From Chloroflexota bacterium (GTDB lineage: Bacteria; Chloroflexota; Limnocylindria; QHBO01), in NCBI GenBank assembly GCA_013816405.1, contig JACDEL010000014.1, positions 1 through 45,348 of the forward strand: a stretch of 45,348 nucleotides of DNA, in the 5' to 3' direction. The first letter of the stretch is position 1. Each line of letters begins with the position of its first letter. Both the position numbers and the translations under genes were made by a program. The notes under the pieces were generated by a model that worked only from the letters and a program-made list of their open reading frames with translations, was not told the DNA's origin and did not search any database. This document shows, one piece after another, positions 952 to 42,168 of this stretch.

Positions 952-2102
952 CCGGCGTTCGCGGTGCCCTCCGACAGATGCACGCGCGGGAGGCGGCCAC
1001 GAAGAGCGGTCGTCACTTCGTAGTTGATGGTGCGTCGCTGGGCGGCAACCTCATCGGCGACGATGCGGGCACCCATCTGCTCGCCGATCAGGACGAACTC
1101 GTCGCCGTAGGTTACATCATCAAGGTCGCCCAGATCGACGGTTATGCCGTCCATGCTCACCGCCCCAACCACGGGACGACGAACACCGTGCAACAGCACC
1201 CAGCCGTTGTTGGCGTGAACGCGTGGCCACCCGTCCCCGTAACCGATTCCCAGGGTGGCGATGCGGGTCGCGCGCTCGGCATGGAAGCGAAGCCCGTACC
1301 CGAGCCCCTCTCCGGCCGCCAGGTCGAAGATCCGCAATGGAAGCGCCTTGAGGGAGAGGACCGGCTGCAGACCGAGGTCTCGGTCGCCGGCCCAGCCGGG
1401 AGCCATGCCGTACAGTCCAAGCCCGGGCCGAATCGCATCGCCGAAGGCGCCTGCGCCGGCCACCACGCCCCCGGTGGCCGCCAGGTGAACGATCCCGGGA
1501 TCGGCTCCGGCCGATCGCATGGCGTCGAGCGCCTGGGCCAGCCTGAGCCGCTGAACATCGCTGTAGGCCTCGTCCTCGCCGGGGACCGCGAGGTGGCTGA
1601 AGGTTCCTGTGAGGTGCAGGTGCCGGCTCCGGGTGATGCGCAGCGCCAGCTGGACAGCGACTGCCGGCTCGCTGCCCTGGCGTCCCAGCCCGGAGTCGAT
1701 CTTGAGCTGGACCGCCGCCCGGCGCCCGACCGCGGCTGCCGCTCGTTCCAGCAGCTCGATCCCGGCCTCGTCGTAGACGACCGGTTCGAGGTCGGCGGCC
1801 ACGGCCGGCTCGGCCTCCGGACCTCCCAGCGCCCAGAGGACGAGGATCGGAGCCTCGATCCCGGCCTTCCGCAGCTCGAGCCCCTCCCCCAGCGTGGCGA
1901 CGGCGAGTCGCTCGGCGCCGTGGTCCAGCAGCGTCCGAGCCACCTGGTTCGCTCCGTGGCCGTAGGCATTCGCCTTGACCACGGCGATCACGGTCATGTG
2001 GTCTCCGGCGAGCCGGCGGAGCGCCGCCAGGTTTCCTGCCAGGGCGACGTGATCGACCTCGATCCAGGCGCGGTGCGGGCTGCGCCCTGTGGCAGAGCTC
2101 AC
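948..2102 (-). CDS. alr: alanine racemase
   Basis: A 384-aa PLP enzyme interconverting L- and D-alanine, which supplies D-Ala for peptidoglycan. The PLP lysine is K43 in AVVKANAYGHG. The second catalytic region GIGYGDGWPR, the GAVSMDG motif and the C-terminal RRTINYEVTTAL block are all present, and length is normal for fold-type III alanine racemases. Its ATG overlaps the nnrD stop by 4 bp and its TGA overlaps the next GTG, so it is coupled to both neighbours. Its presence with glmM, glmS and cdaA suggests the cell makes peptidoglycan, a point worth noting if it is a chloroflexote. Confidence 0.96.
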   Translation of the reverse strand: MSSATGRSPHRAWIEVDHVALAGNLAALRRLAGDHMTVIAVVKANAYGHGANQVARTLLDHGAERLAVATLGEGLELRKAGIEAPILVLWALGGPEAEPAVAADLEPVVYDEAGIELLERAAAAVGRRAAVQLKIDSGLGRQGSEPAVAVQLALRITRSRHLHLTGTFSHLAVPGEDEAYSDVQRLRLAQALDAMRSAGADPGIVHLAATGGVVAGAGAFGDAIRPGLGLYGMAPGWAGDRDLGLQPVLSLKALPLRIFDLAAGEGLGYGLRFHAERATRIATLGIGYGDGWPRVHANNGWVLLHGVRRPVVGAVSMDGITVDLGDLDDVTYGDEFVLIGEQMGARIVADEVAAQRRTINYEVTTALRGRLPRVHLSEGTANAG

Positions 2103-2995
2103 CGGCCCCGCCCGCCACGAACTTGCTGGATGGCCGTCGGCAGCAGGTTGGCGATGTCACGCGCCACCACGCCGGCTTGCCCGATCCGCTGCTCGGCCAG
2201 CATGCCGGCCGCGGCGTGCACTGCCACTCCGCAGCCGGCGGCGTCCAACGCCTCGAGCCCGGCCGCCAGGAATGCCCCAATCGCGCCCGCGAGCACGTCA
2301 CCGCTTCCGGCCGTTGCCAGCGCCGGCGTGGCGACCGCGGATCGAAGGAGCTCGCCGGTCGGCGAGGCGACGACGGTGTGCGCGCCCTTGAGGACCACGA
2401 CCTGGCCCCAGCGGGCCGCCGCTTCGCCGGCCGCCTCCGCGCGCTGGGTATCGTCATCGGCCAGGCCCTCTGACATCCGCATGAGTCGAGCAAACTCGCC
2501 CGGGTGCGGCGTGAGGACCAGGCGCGCTCGAATCGACTCCCACCAGCGCTGAACCTCCGCCAGCGCCACCAGGCCGTCGGCGTCGATCACTGCCGGCTGG
2601 CGGAGCTCGCTGATGAACGTGCGTGCCCGACGCAGCGTGGCCGGCTGCCGGCCGATCCCGGGACCAACAACCAGCGCGTCGTAGGCCGGAGCCTCGGCGG
2701 CCAGCCGACGCCAGCCACCCGGTGCCGTGAGACCGGGCGCCTCCTCGACCAGGAGCATCGAGATCAGCTCGGGGACGAGCCCCATCAGCCGGATCCCGAC
2801 TGCCTCCGGGGTGGCCAGACAGGCGACGCCGACCCCCGCACGGATGGCGCCGAGCCCGGCCAGCAGCGCCGCCCCCGAATACTCCATCGAGCCGGCCACG
2901 ATCAGCAGCCTGCCGAAGGTGCCCTTGTGCGCCCGTGGCGGACGCGCCGGCAGGTGCTCGGCGACCCACCGCTGGGACAGTCCCACGACCGTCAT
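2099..2995 (-). CDS. nnrD: ADP/ATP-dependent NAD(P)H-hydrate dehydratase
   Basis: A 298-aa ribokinase-like CARKD protein (YjeF C-terminal domain) that repairs hydrated NAD(P)H. Visible signatures are HKGTFGRLLIVAGS near residue 30, LTPHPGEFARL, VVLKGAHTVV and the nucleotide-binding ATAGSGDVLAG with its catalytic Asp. The N-terminal epimerase domain (NnrE) found in bifunctional homologues is absent here: the protein starts about 25 residues before the dehydratase domain. Start is ATG at 2995, 4 bp after the final acpS stop, and it overlaps alr by 4 bp. The acpS-nnrD-alr order is common in many bacteria. Confidence 0.93.
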   Translation of the reverse strand: MTVVGLSQRWVAEHLPARPPRAHKGTFGRLLIVAGSMEYSGAALLAGLGAIRAGVGVACLATPEAVGIRLMGLVPELISMLLVEEAPGLTAPGGWRRLAAEAPAYDALVVGPGIGRQPATLRRARTFISELRQPAVIDADGLVALAEVQRWWESIRARLVLTPHPGEFARLMRMSEGLADDDTQRAEAAGEAAARWGQVVVLKGAHTVVASPTGELLRSAVATPALATAGSGDVLAGAIGAFLAAGLEALDAAGCGVAVHAAAGMLAEQRIGQAGVVARDIANLLPTAIQQVRGGRGR

Positions 2996-2999
2996 CGGC

Positions 3000-3380
3000 C
3001 TATGCGTCCGGCGCGCGATGCGCGACCGCCACCGCCACCGCCATGTGCCGCTCGTGCGAGATGCTCACCGTCACGTCTTCGAGCCCGAGCGCGGCTGCGC
3101 GGGCCGCGGCGCGCGCGTGCAGGCGGACCTGTGGGGCGCCGGCCTAGTTGGGGAGGATCTCGATCTCCCGCCAACCGACGCCGCGCACGCCCAGGCCCAG
3201 CACCTTGCTGATCGCCTCCTTGGCGGCCCAGCGCCCCGCAATGCGCTCGGCTCGCGCACCGCAGTAGCGCGCCTCGCCGTCGGTCAGGACGCGCTCGCGG
3301 AATCGATCGGGAAAGCGGCCGAGCGTGGCGATGATGCGATCGATGTCGACCAGGTCGACGCCGATCTCGTGGCGGCTCAT
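3000..3380 (-). pseudogene. acpS: holo-[acyl-carrier-protein] synthase interrupted by an in-frame amber codon
   Basis: AcpS moves 4'-phosphopantetheine from CoA to ACP and is normally essential. From ATG 3380 the frame reads MSRHEIGVDLVDIDR (metal-binding Asp near residue 9) and RWAAKEAISKVLGLG (catalytic Glu), then reaches TAG at 3144-3146 after 78 aa (ILPN-stop). Beyond the TAG the same frame continues as AGAPQVRLHARA and then VSISHERHMAVAVAVA, the conserved AcpS C-terminus, to a second TAG at 3000-3002. The complete frame would be 126 codons, the normal family length. One base change, such as GAG to TAG, explains the break. It may be a real nonsense mutation, readthrough, or a base-call error. 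TAG is the ordinary stop of neighbours such as glmS and rpmJ, so genome-wide recoding is unlikely. Confidence 0.9.
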
Positions 3381-3399
3381 CGCGGCAGCGTCGCGGCCG

Positions 3400-5229
3400 C
3401 TATTCGACCGTGACCGACTTCGCCAGGTTGCGCGGCTGGTCGACGTCCGCGCCGCGCGCGACGGCCACCTCGTAGGCGAGCAGCTGCAGTGGCACGATCG
3501 CAATCACCGGGGACATCTCCTCGGGCGTCTCCGGGACGTACAGGACATCCTGCGCATACCGATCGATCACCTCGTCCCCCACCGTCGCGACCGCCACCAC
3601 GGGCGCCTCGCGGGCATGCACCTCGGCGACGTTGCTGACCACCTTTTCGTAGGTGGCGCTCTTCGTCGCGATCGCCACCAGCGGCGTCTGCGGGTCGAGG
3701 AGCGCGATCGGCCCGTGCTTCAGCTCCCCGGCGGCGTATCCCTCGGCGTGGACATAGGAGAGCTCCTTGAGCTTCAGCGCTCCCTCCATCGCGACCGGGA
3801 ATCCGAGCGCCCGACCGACGAACATGACGTCGCGCACGCCGGCCCAGCGCCTGGCCAGCTTCTTGACCTGGGGAGCCAGCTTGAGCACCTCGGCAGCCTG
3901 GCCGGGGAGGTCGCGCAGGGCGAGCCCGAAGGAGCGGCGGCGGCGATCGCTCATCGTGCCTCGCAGCTGCGCGAGGTGGAGCGCGATCATCTCGAGCACG
4001 ACCACCTGCGTCACGAACGCCTTGGTGGATGCGACGGCGACCTCCGGCCCGGCCTGCAGGTAGCAGACCGCATCAGCCTCGCGGGTCAGGGCGCTGCCGA
4101 CCACGTTGGTGACGACCACGATCACCGCGCCGCGCTCGGAGGCAAGCTTCTGGGGCGCCAGGGTGTCGGCCGTCTCGCCCGACTGGCTGACGCTGATGAC
4201 CAGGGTCCGGTCATCGATGGGCGGCGGCGAGTAGCGCATCTCCGAGCCGATCTGGCCGTTTGCTGGCAGCCCCGCCCAGCTCTGGATGAGGTGCGCACCG
4301 ACCTCGCCCGCGTACCGTGCCGTGCCACAGCCGACCACGTACACCCGCTCGACCCGTCGCAGCTTCTCCTCGATCGCTTCGAGCTCGGGGAGCTTCACGT
4401 TGCCCGCGTCGTCGACACGACCGCGCAGGGCCTCTCCGATGGCGTGTGGCTGCTCGTAGATCTCCTTGAGGGTGAAGTGCGGGAATCCGCCCTTCTCCGC
4501 CGCAGCGATGTTCCACCGGATCTTCGTGACCGGGCGTTCGACCTTGACCCCGTCCATCCCGATGATCGTGACCCCCTCCGGCGTGACGTCGGCGATGTCG
4601 CCCTCCTGCAGGATCACGACGTTCTTGGTGTGCTCCAGGATGGCCGGAACGTCGCTCGCCAGGAACCCCTCGCCGTTCCCGAGTCCCACGATCAGCGGCA
4701 CGTTCATGCGCGCCCCGACGATGCGATTGGGGTGGTCGAGGTGCATCACCCCGATGGCATATGCGCCACGCACCTCGCCGAGGGCGTCGCGCACAGCCTC
4801 GACCAGGTCGCCCTGGTACCGCTCCTCGATCAGGTGCGCCAGGACCTCGGTATCGGTCTCCGAGGTGAACCGATGCCCCGCGGACAGCAGCCGCTCCTTG
4901 ATCTCGGCGTAGTTCTCGATGATCCCGTTGTGGATCAGCGCCAGGCGGCCGCTGCAGTCGCGATGCGGATGGGCGTTGGCGTCGTTCGGGCGTCCATGGG
5001 TTGCCCAGCGGGTGTGGGCGATGCCGGGGTGCCCCGCCGGAGCGCTCCCGTTGAGGTGATCGGTCAGGTTGGAGAGCTTGCCCGCCTTCTTCTCGACGAA
5101 CACCTCTCCGTCGTCGGTGAGGACCGCCAGCCCGGCCGAGTCGTAGCCCCGATACTCGAGGCGGCGAAGGCCCTCGAGCAGGATCGGCGCCGCGTCACGC
5201 GGGCCGACGTACCCCACGATGCCGCACAT
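3400..5229 (-). CDS. glmS: glutamine--fructose-6-phosphate aminotransferase (isomerizing)
   Basis: A 609-aa enzyme making glucosamine-6-phosphate from fructose-6-phosphate and glutamine, the first step of UDP-GlcNAc synthesis. It opens with MCGIVGYVG, whose Cys2 is the N-terminal nucleophile of the glutaminase domain. HTRWATHGRPND and the later SIS domains (SVSQSGETADTLA and a second SIS half ending LAYEVAVARGADVDQPRNLAKSVTVE) are intact. Length and C-terminus match the family. It lies 15 bp downstream of glmM. No ribozyme-like leader can fit in that gap, so a glmS riboswitch is excluded at this position. Confidence 0.97.
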   Translation of the reverse strand: MCGIVGYVGPRDAAPILLEGLRRLEYRGYDSAGLAVLTDDGEVFVEKKAGKLSNLTDHLNGSAPAGHPGIAHTRWATHGRPNDANAHPHRDCSGRLALIHNGIIENYAEIKERLLSAGHRFTSETDTEVLAHLIEERYQGDLVEAVRDALGEVRGAYAIGVMHLDHPNRIVGARMNVPLIVGLGNGEGFLASDVPAILEHTKNVVILQEGDIADVTPEGVTIIGMDGVKVERPVTKIRWNIAAAEKGGFPHFTLKEIYEQPHAIGEALRGRVDDAGNVKLPELEAIEEKLRRVERVYVVGCGTARYAGEVGAHLIQSWAGLPANGQIGSEMRYSPPPIDDRTLVISVSQSGETADTLAPQKLASERGAVIVVVTNVVGSALTREADAVCYLQAGPEVAVASTKAFVTQVVVLEMIALHLAQLRGTMSDRRRRSFGLALRDLPGQAAEVLKLAPQVKKLARRWAGVRDVMFVGRALGFPVAMEGALKLKELSYVHAEGYAAGELKHGPIALLDPQTPLVAIATKSATYEKVVSNVAEVHAREAPVVAVATVGDEVIDRYAQDVLYVPETPEEMSPVIAIVPLQLLAYEVAVARGADVDQPRNLAKSVTVE

Positions 5230-5244
5230 GGTCTCTGGTGGCTC

Positions 5245-6573
5245 CTAGTTCAGTCGCGCGCGGGCGAGCTCGGACAGCTCCCGCGCAATCTGGTTGATCT
5301 CGTCAGCGTCCTCGCCCTCGACCATGATTCGGATCTTCGGCTCCGTCCCGGAGGGCCGAACCAGGATCCGTCCACGCGCGCCAAGACGGGCGTCGGCCTC
5401 TGCCACCGCGGCCGCGAACTCCGTATCGACCTCCCACTGGTCCCGATGGCGGACGGTCGAGTTTATCACCACCTGCGGAAGCATCTGGATCTGACCGGCC
5501 GCCTCCGCCAGCGTGGCGCCGGTGTCGCGCAGCGTCCGCAGCAGCTGGATGCCGGTGAGAATCCCGTCCCCAGTGACGGTCAGGTCGCGGAAGATGACAT
5601 GGCCCGATTGTTCGCCGCCAAGGCATGCGTCGGCGCGCTCCATGGCCTCGAAGACATGCCTGTCGCCGACCGGTGTCCTGATGACGCGGCCCCCGGCAGC
5701 GCCGATGGCGCGGTCGAGCCCGCCGTTGCTCATCACGGTAGTGACCAGGATCCCGTTGCGCAGCGTCCCCTCGGCCAGCCGCGCGAGGGCGCAGATGCCC
5801 ATCACCCCGTCTCCGTCGACGATCGACCCGCGCTCATCGACGGCGATCAGTCGGTCGGCGTCGCCGTCGAACGCCATCCCCATCTCGAGGCTCTCTGCCA
5901 GAACCGCGGCGGCCAGGGCCTGCGGCTGGGTCGACCCGGAATCGAGGTTGATGTTGGTCCCGTCGGGGGATGCCGACAATGCGGTGACGCTCGCCCCCAG
6001 CTCGCGCAGCAGGTCGGGAGCGATTGCCGCCGCCGAGCCGTTGGCACAGTCGATCCCGATCCGCATCCCGCGCAGCAGATCGCCCGCCTCCGAAACGAGG
6101 AAGGCGCGGTAGTCCTCGACCGGCCGCGCATCGCGCGTGATCCGGCCGATCTGCCCATTTGGCATGCCGGGCAGCGACTCGGCCTGGAAGAGCAGGCGCT
6201 CGAGCCCCTCTTCCACCTCGTCGTCGATCTTTCGCCCGCCCGACAGCACCTTCAACCCGTTGTCGTCGGCGGGGTTGTGCGACGCCGAGACCATGATCCC
6301 GGCGGCGAATTCACCGCTAGCGGCCGCGTGTGCGAGGCAGGGCGTGGTCACCACCCCCAGCTGGATGGCGTCCGCGCCGACCGCGGCCAGGCCCGAGGAG
6401 ACCGCGGCAACCAGCATGTCTCCCGACCGGCGCGTGTCCTGGCCGATCACCACGCGACGTCCGAACGCCTCCAGCAGGTGCCCGACGGCGCGGCCCAGGT
6501 CGTAGGCGAGGGTCGGCGTCAGGTCGACATTGGCGACGCCGCGGATTCCATCCGTCCCAAAGAGGCGACCCAT
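5245..6573 (-). CDS. glmM: phosphoglucosamine mutase
   Basis: A 442-aa alpha-D-phosphohexomutase converting GlcN-6-P to GlcN-1-P. The N-terminus is the family's GRLFGTDGIRGVAN. The phosphoserine loop VSASHNPADDNG places the catalytic Ser at residue 98. The Mg loop DGDADR, the sugar-binding GGEQSGH and the phosphate-binding RPSGTEPKIRI are all present. Its ATG overlaps the cdaR stop (TGATG). The cdaA-cdaR-glmM order is the conserved arrangement in which GlmM binds and restrains the diadenylate cyclase, so the pair probably links cell-wall precursor supply to c-di-AMP level here too (inference from other bacteria). Confidence 0.97.
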   Translation of the reverse strand: MGRLFGTDGIRGVANVDLTPTLAYDLGRAVGHLLEAFGRRVVIGQDTRRSGDMLVAAVSSGLAAVGADAIQLGVVTTPCLAHAAASGEFAAGIMVSASHNPADDNGLKVLSGGRKIDDEVEEGLERLLFQAESLPGMPNGQIGRITRDARPVEDYRAFLVSEAGDLLRGMRIGIDCANGSAAAIAPDLLRELGASVTALSASPDGTNINLDSGSTQPQALAAAVLAESLEMGMAFDGDADRLIAVDERGSIVDGDGVMGICALARLAEGTLRNGILVTTVMSNGGLDRAIGAAGGRVIRTPVGDRHVFEAMERADACLGGEQSGHVIFRDLTVTGDGILTGIQLLRTLRDTGATLAEAAGQIQMLPQVVINSTVRHRDQWEVDTEFAAAVAEADARLGARGRILVRPSGTEPKIRIMVEGEDADEINQIARELSELARARLN

Positions 6574-7796
6574 CAGGGCGCCGGCGTCGCCGGCGGAGCG
6601 ATCGTGACCGTGGTCGAGATCGGCGACATGGTGACGAGCGACACTCCCTGAGGAAGTCCCACGGTCGCCTGGATCAGGTGATCCCCTGGGCCTTGGCCCG
6701 TGACATCGAGGGTCGCCGTAAGGCCGCCAGGGTCGATGGCGTCGAGGGCCGAGACGGTCCCGCGCACGGTGACCGCGACCTGCTGAACGTGCGGCAGGCA
6801 GGCGCTGTCGGCTGGGGCACCCTGGCAGACCAGTCCGAGCAGGAGCGTTCGAGTGGCAACCGTCTCACGGATCTGCACCACCACGGTCGGCTCCGCGGCC
6901 GCCGCATCCGCCAGCCGCGCTCCTTCGGGCAGCACCAGCGTGCCGCTCGCCCGCAGGGTCGAGTTGCTGCCCGACAGGCTGATCGGCTCGGTCAACACCT
7001 CGGCGATGGCCGAGAGGACCTCCGGCGCGCCGCGCAACGTCACCACTGACGGGTCCGCGGTCACCGAGCCGACCTCGAAGCCGGCCGCTGGCGATCCGAT
7101 CAGCAGCGGACGGATCGCCACCGTACGGCTGGTCTCGACCGTGTTGACGTCGATCTGGACCCGGACGCTCGACGGGTTCAGCTCCACGGATTCGACACGG
7201 CGCCCGTCGGCGTCGACCGGCACCAGGTCGACCTGCCCGCAACAGTCGATCCCGGACGGGTCGATGCGCACGGTGGCCAGCGCTCGGTCGACGCGGTCCA
7301 GGAGGCTCTGGGGGCCGCTGGCCGCAACCCGCTGGACACTGAGCTGCGGGGTGCTGATCTCCAGGCCGGGAGGGACCTGGCCCGAATCGACGGCGACACG
7401 GACCTGCACCTCGGCGAGGCGATCGATCGCCACTGAGACGGCATCCGGCGTGTAGGTCAGCACCTCGACGCCGTCGACCAGGGGACGGACGTGAATCCTG
7501 AGGGACTGCACCTGCGGCGCCTGGGACATGTCGTAGGTGGAAAGGTCGATGGTGACCGCGAAGGACTCGGCGGTCACGCTAGCGGGCAGGTCGGTGGCGC
7601 TGCGGTACTTGATGTCGACCGTCCCGAGCTGCTGCGTGAGCAGGTACGTCCCTTCGGGCTGCGCCAGGGCCGTGACCGAGACGCCTGGAAAGGTCTTGTC
7701 GCTGAACGAGCCTGAGAAGACGAGGCCGGTATACAGGATCGTGGCCAGGGCGAGCGCGCCCAGCTTCAGGGCCCAGTTGCGGAAGAGCCAGGCCAT
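6573..7796 (-). CDS. cdaR: YbbR-domain protein, CdaA regulator
   Basis: A 407-aa protein with one N-terminal transmembrane segment (about residues 8-28, WALKLGALALATILYTGLVF) followed by an extracytoplasmic region of several beta-rich repeats. These have the YbbR pattern (for example TVDIKYRSATDLP and SLRIHVRPLVDGVEVLTY). Such proteins bind and modulate CdaA. It starts directly after the cdaA stop with no spacer and overlaps glmM by 1 bp. The repeats diverge in sequence, which is normal for YbbR domains. Function is assigned from domain plus gene order. Confidence 0.87.
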   Translation of the reverse strand: MAWLFRNWALKLGALALATILYTGLVFSGSFSDKTFPGVSVTALAQPEGTYLLTQQLGTVDIKYRSATDLPASVTAESFAVTIDLSTYDMSQAPQVQSLRIHVRPLVDGVEVLTYTPDAVSVAIDRLAEVQVRVAVDSGQVPPGLEISTPQLSVQRVAASGPQSLLDRVDRALATVRIDPSGIDCCGQVDLVPVDADGRRVESVELNPSSVRVQIDVNTVETSRTVAIRPLLIGSPAAGFEVGSVTADPSVVTLRGAPEVLSAIAEVLTEPISLSGSNSTLRASGTLVLPEGARLADAAAAEPTVVVQIRETVATRTLLLGLVCQGAPADSACLPHVQQVAVTVRGTVSALDAIDPGGLTATLDVTGQGPGDHLIQATVGLPQGVSLVTMSPISTTVTIAPPATPAP

Positions 7797-13334: not shown

Positions 13335-13340
13335 TCGCGC

Positions 13341-13454
13341 CTAGCCCTGCCGCTGCTTGTGCTTGGGGATGACGCAGATGACCATGACCACGCCGGAGCG
13401 CTTGATGACCTTGCAGCGCTCACAGCGCGGCTTGACGGAAGCAGAAACCTTCAT
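13341..13454 (-). CDS. rpmJ: 50S ribosomal protein L36 (zinc form)
   Basis: 37 aa, read directly from the minus strand. It begins [16 protein letters not shown] and ends [11 protein letters not shown]. Cys11, Cys14, Cys27 and His32 form the zinc-ribbon set of the C+ type. Its ATG overlaps the infA stop (ATGA). The infA-rpmJ-rpsM order is the conserved one in most bacteria. Confidence 0.97.
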
Positions 13455-13669
13455 CTCATCCTGTAGGTGATGCGACCCCTGGTGAGGTCATATGGACTCA
13501 GTTCGACGCGCACGGTGTCGCCGGGCAGGATGCGGATGAAGTTCTGGCGCAGCTTGCCGGAGATGTGGGCGAGGACCTCGTGTCCATCCTCCAGTCGCAC
13601 CTTGAACATCGCGTTGGGCAAGGGGAGGACAACCTCGCCCTCGACCTCGATCGCATCCTTCTTCGCCAA
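13451..13669 (-). CDS. infA: translation initiation factor IF-1
   Basis: 72 aa S1-like OB-fold protein that occupies the 30S A site during initiation. [20 protein letters not shown], the [33 protein letters not shown] core and final YRMR fit the family exactly. It is preceded by 129 bp that hold a TATACT -10-like hexamer, so an internal promoter is plausible here. Confidence 0.98.
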
Positions 13670-13757
13670 GCGCTACGCACCCTCGAACTGCTGATTAGCT
13701 GCAAATGAGTTGGGAACACACGGAAAGGCCGCCGCTCGGGGCGACCACGGAAGGAGG

Positions 13758-13763
13758 AGTATA
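13758..13763 (-). promoter_or_regulatory. possible internal promoter (-10 hexamer) for infA-rpmJ-rpsM
   Basis: On the minus strand the map-infA gap reads GTGTATACTCC, a near-consensus -10 (TATACT) identical to the hexamer of the str promoter near 30.4 kb. No good -35 lies at 16-19 bp because that stretch is GC-rich. The predicted start would leave a leader of about 80 nt before infA. This 129-bp gap is the longest in the superoperon, which fits a secondary promoter, but the evidence is the one hexamer. Confidence 0.4.
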
Positions 13764-13798
13764 CACGAGGCGGGGTGCCGAGCCGATCAGAGCGGCGA

Positions 13799-14566
13799 TC
13801 AGGCACGCGTGAGCACCTCCGGGCCGGATGGCGTGACCGCGATCGTGTCCTCGAAATGGGCCGACACACTGCCGTCGGTGGTGACGACGGTCCACCCGTC
13901 GTCCAGCAGCGCAACGTCGTCACCGCCGAGGTTGAACATCGGCTCGATCGCGAAGCACATGCCCGCCTCGATGCGCATCCCGGTCCCGACCCGGCCATAG
14001 TTCGGAACCTGTGGATCCTCGTGCATGGCGGTGCCGATGCCATGGCCCACGAACGGTCGCACGATGCCGTAACTGTGCTCGTGCGCGACCGCCTCGATGG
14101 CGGCGCCGACATCGCCCAGCCGGTTTCCCGGGACAGCGGCCGCGATCCCCGCCTCCATGCCGCGCCGTGTGGCATCGATCAGCCGGGTGAGCCGCTCGGG
14201 GATCGGCCCGACCGCGAACGTGCGCGCGGTATCGGCGTGCCACCCCTGCCAGATGCACCCGATGTCCAGCTTCACGACGTCGCCGGCGCCGATACGACGC
14301 CCCGTGGAGGGGATCCCGTGGACCACCTCGTCGTTGAGCGAGACGCAGATCGAGCCGGGAAACGGGATCGTCTGGCGCGAGCCGCCGTAGCCCAGGAAGG
14401 AGGGGGTCGCCCCGGCGTCGCGAATCATCCGCTCCGCGATGACGTCGAGATCAGCGGTCGTGACATCCGGACGCAGCTCGCCCTCGAGCACGCGCAGGAC
14501 ATCGGCCAGGATGGTGCCGGCATGTCGCATGCGGGCGACCTCCTCGGGACGCTTGATCGTCACCAT
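13799..14566 (-). CDS. map: methionine aminopeptidase, type I
   Basis: 255 aa. It removes the initiator Met from nascent proteins. The metal site residues are visible in VVKLDIGCIWQGWHADTART, GHGIGTAMHEDPQVPNYG and MCFAIEPMF. A conserved His lies in FLGYGGSRQTIPFPGSICVSLNDEVVHGIP. It has no N-terminal zinc-finger extension. Its ATG overlaps the adk stop by 7 bp, in the usual secY-adk-map-infA order. Confidence 0.97.
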   Translation of the reverse strand: MVTIKRPEEVARMRHAGTILADVLRVLEGELRPDVTTADLDVIAERMIRDAGATPSFLGYGGSRQTIPFPGSICVSLNDEVVHGIPSTGRRIGAGDVVKLDIGCIWQGWHADTARTFAVGPIPERLTRLIDATRRGMEAGIAAAVPGNRLGDVGAAIEAVAHEHSYGIVRPFVGHGIGTAMHEDPQVPNYGRVGTGMRIEAGMCFAIEPMFNLGGDDVALLDDGWTVVTTDGSVSAHFEDTIAVTPSGPEVLTRA

Positions 14567-38954: not shown

Positions 38955-39800
38955 ATGAACAGGCTGAACGTCAACGAACGAGCGCAGATCATCCGGTGTC
39001 TGATCGAAGGTAACTCGATCCGTTCGACCGCCCGGATGACCGGGGCTGCCCGGAACACGATCACCACCCTGCTCGTCAATCTCGGGACCGTCTGCTCCGA
39101 GTATCAGGACCGGGTACTCCGCAACCTGACCTCGACTCGGATCGAGTGCGACGAGATTTGGTCCTTCTGCTACGCCAAGGCCAAGAACGTCCCGGACCAG
39201 TACGCGGGCGTCCCCGGCTACGGCGACGTGTGGACCTGGACCGCGATTGACCCCGACACCAAACTCGTCCCGGCATGGCTGGTCGGCTCGCGCGAGCAGG
39301 AGGACGCCTTCGCCTTCATCGCCGACCTTGGCTCGCGGCTGGCGAACCGGGTCCAGCTGACGACCGATGGGCACCTTGGCTACCTGACCGCCATCGAGAA
39401 GGAGTTTGGGCGCGACGTTGACTACGCCATGCTCATCAAGACTTTCGGTGTAGTCCCGAGTTCCGATGGATCGCCGACCGCTCGGCGCTACTCGCCCAAC
39501 GAGGTCACGTCGCAAGAGGTCCGGGTCGTCATGGGCAACCCCGATCCCGACCTGATCTCGACCTCCTACGTTGAGCGCAACAACCTGACCATGCGCATGC
39601 AGATGCGCCGCTTCACCCGCCTGACCAATGGCTTCTCCAAGAAGATCGAGAATCACGCGGCGATGGTCAGCCTGCACTTTATGGCCTACAACTTCGCGCG
39701 ACCCCACTCGGCGCTCGGCAAGAACCGAACCCCGGCGATGGCGGCTGGAGTGGCGGATCACGTCTGGACCGTGCAGGAGATCGCGGCGCTGCTCGACTAG
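38955..39800 (+). CDS. IS1-family DDE transposase, 281 aa
   Basis: The N-terminus (residues ~5-45, VNERAQIIRCLIEGNSIRSTARMTG) is a helix-turn-helix for binding the ends. The catalytic triad is visible as D66 in CDEIWSFCY, D138 in LTTDGHLGYL and E207 in TSYVERNNLTMRM. MRRFTRLTNGFSKK and LHFMAYNFARPHSALG follow as in IS1-group enzymes. It is a single uninterrupted frame, unlike IS1 itself, which needs a -1 frameshift to join insA and insB. No Shine-Dalgarno is seen. The gene looks intact, so the element may still move. An IS1595-type enzyme is less likely because the N-terminal zinc ribbon is absent. Confidence 0.9.
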   Translation: MNRLNVNERAQIIRCLIEGNSIRSTARMTGAARNTITTLLVNLGTVCSEYQDRVLRNLTSTRIECDEIWSFCYAKAKNVPDQYAGVPGYGDVWTWTAIDPDTKLVPAWLVGSREQEDAFAFIADLGSRLANRVQLTTDGHLGYLTAIEKEFGRDVDYAMLIKTFGVVPSSDGSPTARRYSPNEVTSQEVRVVMGNPDPDLISTSYVERNNLTMRMQMRRFTRLTNGFSKKIENHAAMVSLHFMAYNFARPHSALGKNRTPAMAAGVADHVWTVQEIAALLD

Positions 39801-39818
39801 GCTGCTAGGCTCCGCGAC

Positions 39819-41336
39819 GTGGCCGACGATCCAAACATCCTCTACTACGGCGATAACTTGGACGTGCTGCGCCGCCATATCGCGGATGCCAGCGTCGATC
39901 TCGTCTACCTCGATCCCCCGTTCAACTCGAACGCCGACTACAACGTGCTCTTCTCTGAGCATGGCGAGAAGGCGTCCGCGCAGATTCAGGCGTTCGAGGA
40001 CACCTGGGAGTGGAACACCGAGGCGGCTGCCGCCTACCAAGAGATTGTCGAGCGGGGGGGGGGAGTCGCAGAGGCTATGCGCGCCTTCCGAACGATGGTC
40101 GGCGACAGCGACATGCTCGCCTATCTGTCGATGATGGCCCCGCGGCTGGTCGAGTTGCGACGGGTGCTCAAGCCGAGTGGGTCGATCTATCTCCACTGCG
40201 ACCCGACCGCGTCCCATTACCTCAAGCTCCTTATGGACTCCGTGTTCGGGCCGGCGAACTACCGAACCGAAATCATTTGGCGTCGGGCAAGCGGATTCAA
40301 GAGGTCGTCTGCGAGGCGTTTCCCGCACAAGCATGACGTGATCCTTTTCTACTGCAAGGACCCCGCCCGACTCACATTCCATCCGCAATTCCGCAAGCAC
40401 AAGCCTGAATACATCAAGCGATTCAAGAGGGATGTCACTGGTCGGCTCTACCGCGACGATGTAAATCCAACGGCAGGCGGCCGCCGCACTATCTATCTGG
40501 ACGAGGTGGAGGGCGACCTGGTTGATTCGGTGTGGGCTGACATAAACCCAATCAACCCCGTCGCCGCCGAGCGTCTCGGCTATCCAACACAGAAACCGAT
40601 CGCACTGATGGAACGCATCATTGCTGCCAGCTCCGACCCCGGCGATCTCGTGCTTGACCCGTTCTGCGGCTGCGGGACTACCGTCGATGCGGCACAAGCA
40701 CTCGGGCGACGATGGATAGGGATCGACGTCACCCACCTTGCAATCGGGCTTATCAAGCATCGACTGGCCGGTCGCTACGGACCGGGGATCGCGGCCACTT
40801 ATCGGACCATCGGCGAGCCGACCACGGTCGAAGGCGCTCGGATGCTCGCCGCCGAAGATCCGTGGCAGTTCCAAGCATGGGCGCTCGGCCTTGTCGGAGC
40901 GCGGCAGGCAGGATCGGCAAAGAAGGGCGGGGACAAGGGGATCGACGGCAAGCTCTACTTCCACGATTCGCCCGACATGGCGGACAAACAGATCGTCTTC
41001 TCCGTCAAGGCCGGGCATCTTGTCCCGAGCTTCATCCGTGATCTGCGCGGAGTGATCGACCGAGAAGAAGCGCAGATCGGCGTCCTAATCTCGTTCGAGG
41101 AACCCACTTCGGGGATGCGATCGGAGGCGGCGAGCGCCGGCTTCTACGACTCCCCTTGGGGACGGCATCCGCGCATACAGCTCCGGACGGTCGGCGAACT
41201 GTTGGAGGGCAAGGGCATCGACTATCCGCACATGACCAATGTCACGCATCGGCGTGCGCCGCGAGCGAAGGCGGCTGAACCGGAGCGGTTGGAACTGTTC
41301 GGCCAAGTCGCCGAGGAGCCGGAGCCGTTCGACTAG
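39819..41336 (+). CDS. DNA N4-cytosine/N6-adenine methyltransferase fused to an Mrr-like nuclease domain, 505 aa
   Basis: Starts with GTG 18 bp after the transposase stop, so it is probably cotranscribed. DPPF at residues 32-35 is the catalytic motif IV, and DPFCGCGTT at 280-288 is the SAM-binding motif I. Motif IV preceding motif I places it in the beta-type N6/N4 class (pfam N6_N4_Mtase). Residues ~350-470 form a restriction-endonuclease-like domain: KKGGDKGIDGKLYF with D376, then IVFSVKAG with K397 and DLRGVIDREEAQIGVLISFE. This matches the Mrr_cat-type tail of a recognised methyltransferase subfamily. A run of ten G (40054-40063) encodes R79-G82 and is a slippage-prone site. No separate restriction enzyme is present. 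Confidence 0.9.
   Translation: MADDPNILYYGDNLDVLRRHIADASVDLVYLDPPFNSNADYNVLFSEHGEKASAQIQAFEDTWEWNTEAAAAYQEIVERGGGVAEAMRAFRTMVGDSDMLAYLSMMAPRLVELRRVLKPSGSIYLHCDPTASHYLKLLMDSVFGPANYRTEIIWRRASGFKRSSARRFPHKHDVILFYCKDPARLTFHPQFRKHKPEYIKRFKRDVTGRLYRDDVNPTAGGRRTIYLDEVEGDLVDSVWADINPINPVAAERLGYPTQKPIALMERIIAASSDPGDLVLDPFCGCGTTVDAAQALGRRWIGIDVTHLAIGLIKHRLAGRYGPGIAATYRTIGEPTTVEGARMLAAEDPWQFQAWALGLVGARQAGSAKKGGDKGIDGKLYFHDSPDMADKQIVFSVKAGHLVPSFIRDLRGVIDREEAQIGVLISFEEPTSGMRSEAASAGFYDSPWGRHPRIQLRTVGELLEGKGIDYPHMTNVTHRRAPRAKAAEPERLELFGQVAEEPEPFD
40054..40063 (+). repeat. G10 homopolymer inside the methyltransferase gene
   Basis: Ten consecutive G, read as part of CGG-GGG-GGG-GGA. Loss or gain of one base would truncate the methyltransferase between its motifs IV and I. 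I did not notice a longer homopolymer elsewhere in the window. Confidence 0.9.
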
Positions 41337-41337
41337 C

Positions 41338-41348
41338 CTCTCACGCAT
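41338..41348 (+). repeat. CTCTCACGCAT motif, copy 4
   Basis: Begins one base after the methyltransferase stop codon and 21 bp before copy 5, in the 31-bp gap before the next ATG. Confidence 0.85.
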
Positions 41349-41358
41349 CCGGCGTAGA

Positions 41359-41369
41359 CTCTCACGCAT
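41359..41369 (+). repeat. CTCTCACGCAT motif, copy 5, overlapping a start codon
   Basis: The final AT of the motif is the AT of the ATG at 41368-41370. A TAGACT hexamer at 41355-41360 lies just upstream and overlaps the motif's first two bases. Confidence 0.85.
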
Positions 41370-42168
41370 GGCGCTGCCCCCGACCGCTGGTATTCGTCTG
41401 AAGATCCTCCGGGCATTGCACGATCTCGACGAAATCCACGTCGAAGAAGGGAACTACCTGCGTCCAGACCCGCACACCGTCCGGTTCGAGTTTTACGAGG
41501 AAAAGGGCGAGCGGCGCGCCCGCGCGCTCCTCGTTATCCGCGAGCCGGCGCCCCCAGGCCTGGGCGTCTTGGCTGGCGAGGCTGCCTACCACTTGCGCGG
41601 GGCGCTGGACCACTTGGTCTATCAACTCGCGCTGCTTAACGTTCGCAACCCGTCCGGCACGCAGTTTCCGCTCTGTCTCGATGAGCGGGCCTATCGGACC
41701 GTGCCGCCGGGGAAGAAGCGCAGTCCCCGCGACTCGATGCTCCGTGGCCTGCGCGAGGAGCACCGGGCAATCATCGACGAGTTCCAGCCTTACCACGACG
41801 GGGAGCGAGCGAAGCTGAACCCCCTCTACGTCGTCGGCAAGTTCGCAAACGCGGACAAGCACCGCACCATCCAAGCGGCGTTTGGCCGACCTGATCAGCG
41901 CAAGGTCGTGCCGTGGGAGGACGGCATCGAGCTTGACGTCCGGTTCCCCGATCTGAAACCCCCAATCAATGAGGGAGCAGAACTGTTCAACGTGCGCGTC
42001 GTCGAGGGATACCCGAACGTGCCCATGAACTACAGCATCCGATTCACTGTCGCCTACGGGACTGGTCGGCCCGACGATGTCTCGCATATGTATCTCGTGG
42101 AGGCGGGCGAGCGCATCCACAACCTCATCAGCGAGATTGAGGACCGCGTCCCCGCGCTGAAAGGGTAG
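41368..42168 (+). CDS. passenger protein of unknown function with RX4H motif, 266 aa
   Basis: From ATG 41368. The open frame extends upstream into the methyltransferase gene, but that part is an Arg-rich shadow. Residues 66-90 read GVLAGEAAYHLRGALDHLVYQLA, a motif I recognise from scattered hypothetical proteins but cannot name. FQPYHDG and VGKFANADKHRTIQAAF follow. R77-G-A-L-D-H82 fits the RX4-6H pattern of HEPN ribonucleases, and the surrounding stretch looks helical, but this is only a resemblance. There is no signal peptide or membrane segment. It has no Shine-Dalgarno, and its place beside a methyltransferase suggests an accessory role in the same system. Confidence 0.75.
   Translation: MALPPTAGIRLKILRALHDLDEIHVEEGNYLRPDPHTVRFEFYEEKGERRARALLVIREPAPPGLGVLAGEAAYHLRGALDHLVYQLALLNVRNPSGTQFPLCLDERAYRTVPPGKKRSPRDSMLRGLREEHRAIIDEFQPYHDGERAKLNPLYVVGKFANADKHRTIQAAFGRPDQRKVVPWEDGIELDVRFPDLKPPINEGAELFNVRVVEGYPNVPMNYSIRFTVAYGTGRPDDVSHMYLVEAGERIHNLISEIEDRVPALKG

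Follow-up and report, generated by a model that had tools for sequence, protein, structure and literature searches.

Whether the stop codon interrupting acpS is a genuine feature of a living bacterium or a flaw in the record of its genome is the question raised by a 45,348-nucleotide stretch of DNA from an uncultured Chloroflexota bacterium (contig JACDEL010000014.1; hereafter, the window). The gene, which encodes a holo-[acyl-carrier-protein] synthase, lies on the minus strand at 3000..3380 and comprises 126 codons plus a terminal TAG, its minus-strand frame (3380..3000) translating as MSRHEIGVDLVDID...GRWAAKEAISKVLGLGVRGVGWREIEILPN*AGAPQVRLHARAAARAAALGLEDVTVSISHERHMAVAVAVAHRAPDA*. A preliminary description of this DNA had reported that an amber codon splits the gene after the catalytic Glu (E55, in WAAKEA) and before the SISHE segment, and this observation is confirmed: an in-frame TAG stands at codon 79 (minus strand, 3144..3146, or 3146..3144 as read; CTA on the plus strand), while the rest of the frame is complete. 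As written, the ORF encodes 78 residues only, rather than the uninterrupted frame of ~120 amino acids that marks an AcpS-type phosphopantetheinyl transferase (PPTase).

On either side of the stop the gene is well preserved. The N-terminal 78 codons (3147..3380, minus strand) score 51 bits against PF01648 by themselves and hold the active-site region with D9 (GVDLVD), E55 and K59 (WAAKEAISK), all of which align with relatives and with solved AcpS chains. The C-terminal 47 codons (3003..3143, minus strand), past the stop, are open and conserved, including a G-x-P turn and the VTVSISHE motif, and run to the normal TAG terminator (3000..3002, minus strand), which is likewise TAG in the congener G002. 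With X at codon 79, the product scores 89.4 bits against NCBIfam TIGR00516 (cut-off 59.8); in a profile search of the genome it scored 62.1 bits against PF01648 (cut-off 25), and across its full 126 residues it shares 96% identity with the AcpS of G002, whose copy has no stop. The window gene matches AcpS-type holo-ACP synthases (TIGR00516/PF01648) in full length, in the D9/E55/K59 region and SISHE, and in the neighbourhood alr-nnrD-acpS-glmS-glmM, but differs from them in its in-frame TAG. The order here continues as alr-nnrD-acpS-glmS-glmM-ybbR-cdaA, the cdaA label coming from translation and gene order with no profile. Both flanking genes are intact: glmS, upstream (3400..5229, minus strand; SIS and GATase domains), is stop-free and 95% identical to its G002 counterpart, and nnrD, the NAD(P)H-hydrate dehydratase gene downstream (2099..2995, minus strand; PF01256), is 86% identical. 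On the plus strand, a 1108-codon open frame (3325-6651) runs antisense to glmS-glmM and has the look of a mirror ORF in GC-rich coding sequence.

Comparison with relatives establishes the one-base nature of the interruption. Codon 79 is TGG (Trp) in all three congeners (G001, G002 and G003), none of which shares the stop, so the amber is a one-base change: a transition at position 3145, G-to-A on the gene strand and C-to-T on the plus strand. The preliminary description was mistaken in expecting GAG, AAG or CAG here. Trp is the residue of this genus; the wider family varies at codon 79, with mostly Arg and some Phe. In a set of 100 related genomes plus the window's own, 96 have a PF01648 match, and in that survey an in-frame stop in the matching gene was seen only in the window's genome and in one fragmentary match. 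In the latter, from a genome of the same class (G048; L051, C103:20300-21500), an in-frame TGA precedes the AcpS open frame, which begins only a little ahead of GRWAAKEA, and the N-terminal part may be frameshifted.

Between the window and G002, acpS shows 27 synonymous and 5 nonsynonymous differences, of which 18 and 2 precede the amber and 9 and 3 fall in the C-terminal half, despite the ~101 nonsynonymous sites there. Among the 121 codons comparable in the four genomes of the genus, W79* is the sole window-private amino-acid change at a genus-invariant site. Both halves of the gene show purifying selection, either ongoing or lasting until very recently.

An intact frame beyond a TAG could in principle reflect reassignment or suppression of that codon throughout the genome, and the presence of one in-frame TAG, though nothing else, speaks for it. 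However, TAG terminates 19 of the 46 ORFs in the window, acpS included; release factor RF1 is present (prfA, 494.6 bits against a cut-off of 423.25); none of the ~50 tRNA matches in the genome has a CUA anticodon, tRNA-Trp being plain CCA; and no further TAG lies in frame within a gene in 179 kb. TAG recoding and dedicated suppression are rejected, and genome-wide reassignment, already contradicted by these counts, is scarcely credible. Two partial tRNA-like pieces (L179, G000:C7:7830-7888; L182, G000:C5:24954-25007) share CCTGACTCTGGATCAGG and are possibly integration-site remnants of tRNA-Gln(CTG); on inspection, neither contains a CUA anticodon.

A split or restarted AcpS was likewise rejected, as no usable start codon lies near the amber and the C-terminal piece would be without the Asp and Glu. 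Nor was a readthrough-stimulating RNA structure found 3' of the amber (z = +0.82 over an 86-nt stretch spanning the stop and its 3' side, in pseudoknot-free folding). Programmed or suppressor-dependent UAG readthrough would share with the window acpS an open, conserved frame past the UAG, but here suppressor tRNA and structure are absent, RF1 is present, and the stop occurs in no relative. The suggestion of readthrough in the preliminary description has thus gained no positive support, since its proposed search for an amber suppressor tRNA returned none, RF1 is encoded, TAG routinely ends genes here and the RNA after the stop has no unusual structure. It is also conceivable that the TAG is real and simply tolerated, with background near-cognate readthrough of UAG giving enough full-length AcpS and the residue at codon 79 not being critical. 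Because this position varies in relatives, almost any inserted residue should work; AcpS is catalytic, such that low amounts might do; and the frame past the stop is conserved. The presence of RF1, the lack of a CUA tRNA and of any stable downstream structure (z = +0.8), and the restriction of the stop to the window among its congeners all count against such tolerance, and we consider it improbable. That the TAG is both real and fixed, with the sole, essential AcpS made only through leaky readthrough at a position where any residue will serve, is more doubtful still, and we regard it as very improbable.

Could the organism instead do without acpS? The preliminary description had seen no other PPTase in the window, and this holds genome-wide: acpS is the sole PF01648 match in the 95%-complete genome, and TIGR00556 and PF17837 add none. 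By PF01648 and TIGR00556, each of the three congeners, one of them 99% complete, also has acpS as its only PPTase. With a second PPTase absent from the genome and from each congener, the proposal of a nonsense mutation offset by a different transferase is unsupported, and a pseudogene with a functional backup was rejected by the three profiles. A backup in the unassembled part of the genome is possible, without support from the congeners. Since ACP is intact, as are the FabF-type synthases with their four ketoacyl-synthase matches, this organism presumably still requires holo-ACP, and because acpS is its sole PPTase, a true acpS null should be lethal. AcpS has been described as essential (PMC11436758), and in Streptomyces an acpS-like gene is apparently essential (PMC3909215). 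Elsewhere in the phylum, four Chloroflexota assemblies rated 92-98% complete (G174, G209 and G421, at 96-98%, and G011) have ACP and no PF01648 match, which would reflect gaps in the assemblies or a transferase that goes unrecognised.

The amber is also isolated within its assembly. Interrupted genes were sought over 179 kb, made up of the window and 134 kb sampled elsewhere in the genome, at thresholds calibrated on acpS. Of the five same-frame stops detected, four mark ordinary boundaries between genes, each followed closely by a start; the fifth is the one in acpS, leaving no other gene split by an in-frame stop. None of 55 matches to ABC-ATPase domains contains one either. With acpS the only split gene and the ABC-ATPase domains free of stops, the amber is a solitary point event and reflects no systematic error or change of code. 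In seven neighbouring genes, 43 amino-acid changes are private to the window versus 34 private to G002, no marked excess. Farther along the window (38955-42168), an N6/N4 DNA methylase gene has a transposase-like ORF, with an IS1-type DDE match, on one side and a companion ORF on the other. In G002, relatives of both flanking ORFs occur without the methylase in the ribosomal-protein operon, at a place matching window ~13340-13799; given this different location, the unit appears to have moved.

The isolation of the event in a clean assembly counts in favour of a rival reading, a genuine nonsense mutation of very recent origin that is fixed in the population sequenced. AcpS would then be lost, or bypassed through outside fatty acids or through a transferase that lies in the unassembled ~5% or is too diverged for the profiles. 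The three 96-98% complete assemblies with ACP and no PF01648 match make loss or replacement of the enzyme conceivable in the phylum. Against such fixation, relatives in PF01648, TIGR00556 and PF17837 are absent elsewhere in the genome, the congeners have one PPTase each, ACP and the ketoacyl synthases are intact, and the remainder of acpS shows no decay; we judge it unlikely, though still worth serious consideration.

For a sole, apparently essential gene that bears one fresh nonsense change and has no machinery to compensate for it, the most plausible reading is a consensus error or an allele that is rare or dead. We therefore favour, with a probability of roughly 0.6, the view that the T at 3145 is a mistake of consensus or assembly, or else that the metagenome-type consensus picked up an allele that is rare or non-viable. 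The locus would then be an ordinary acpS, present in single copy in a metagenome-type assembly from Chloroflexota and one base off its congeners, and the living population would carry an intact gene; we infer that the 3145 base has not become fixed among living cells. The clean state of the remaining assembly (43 versus 34 private changes, 0/55 ABC-ATPase domains, 179 kb scanned) is a counterpoint to this reading, as is the fact that C-to-T is the commonest kind of real mutation. The case resembles single-base nonsense codons in draft or metagenome-assembled genomes, whether error, minor allele or recent pseudogene, in that it involves one transition in a sole essential copy with no other decay or second disruption. 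A base error, the first of the three explanations in the preliminary description, remains the best of them, and the amber most likely marks such an error, or a rare allele that the assembly caught, and not new biology.

As the evidence stands, the finding is a caution: where a metagenome bin shows a lone nonsense codon in an essential gene that has no second copy, the reads should be consulted before biology is read into it. If the stop proves to be fixed, acpS would offer a natural example in which an enzyme that seems essential survives a nonsense codon with neither suppressor nor backup.
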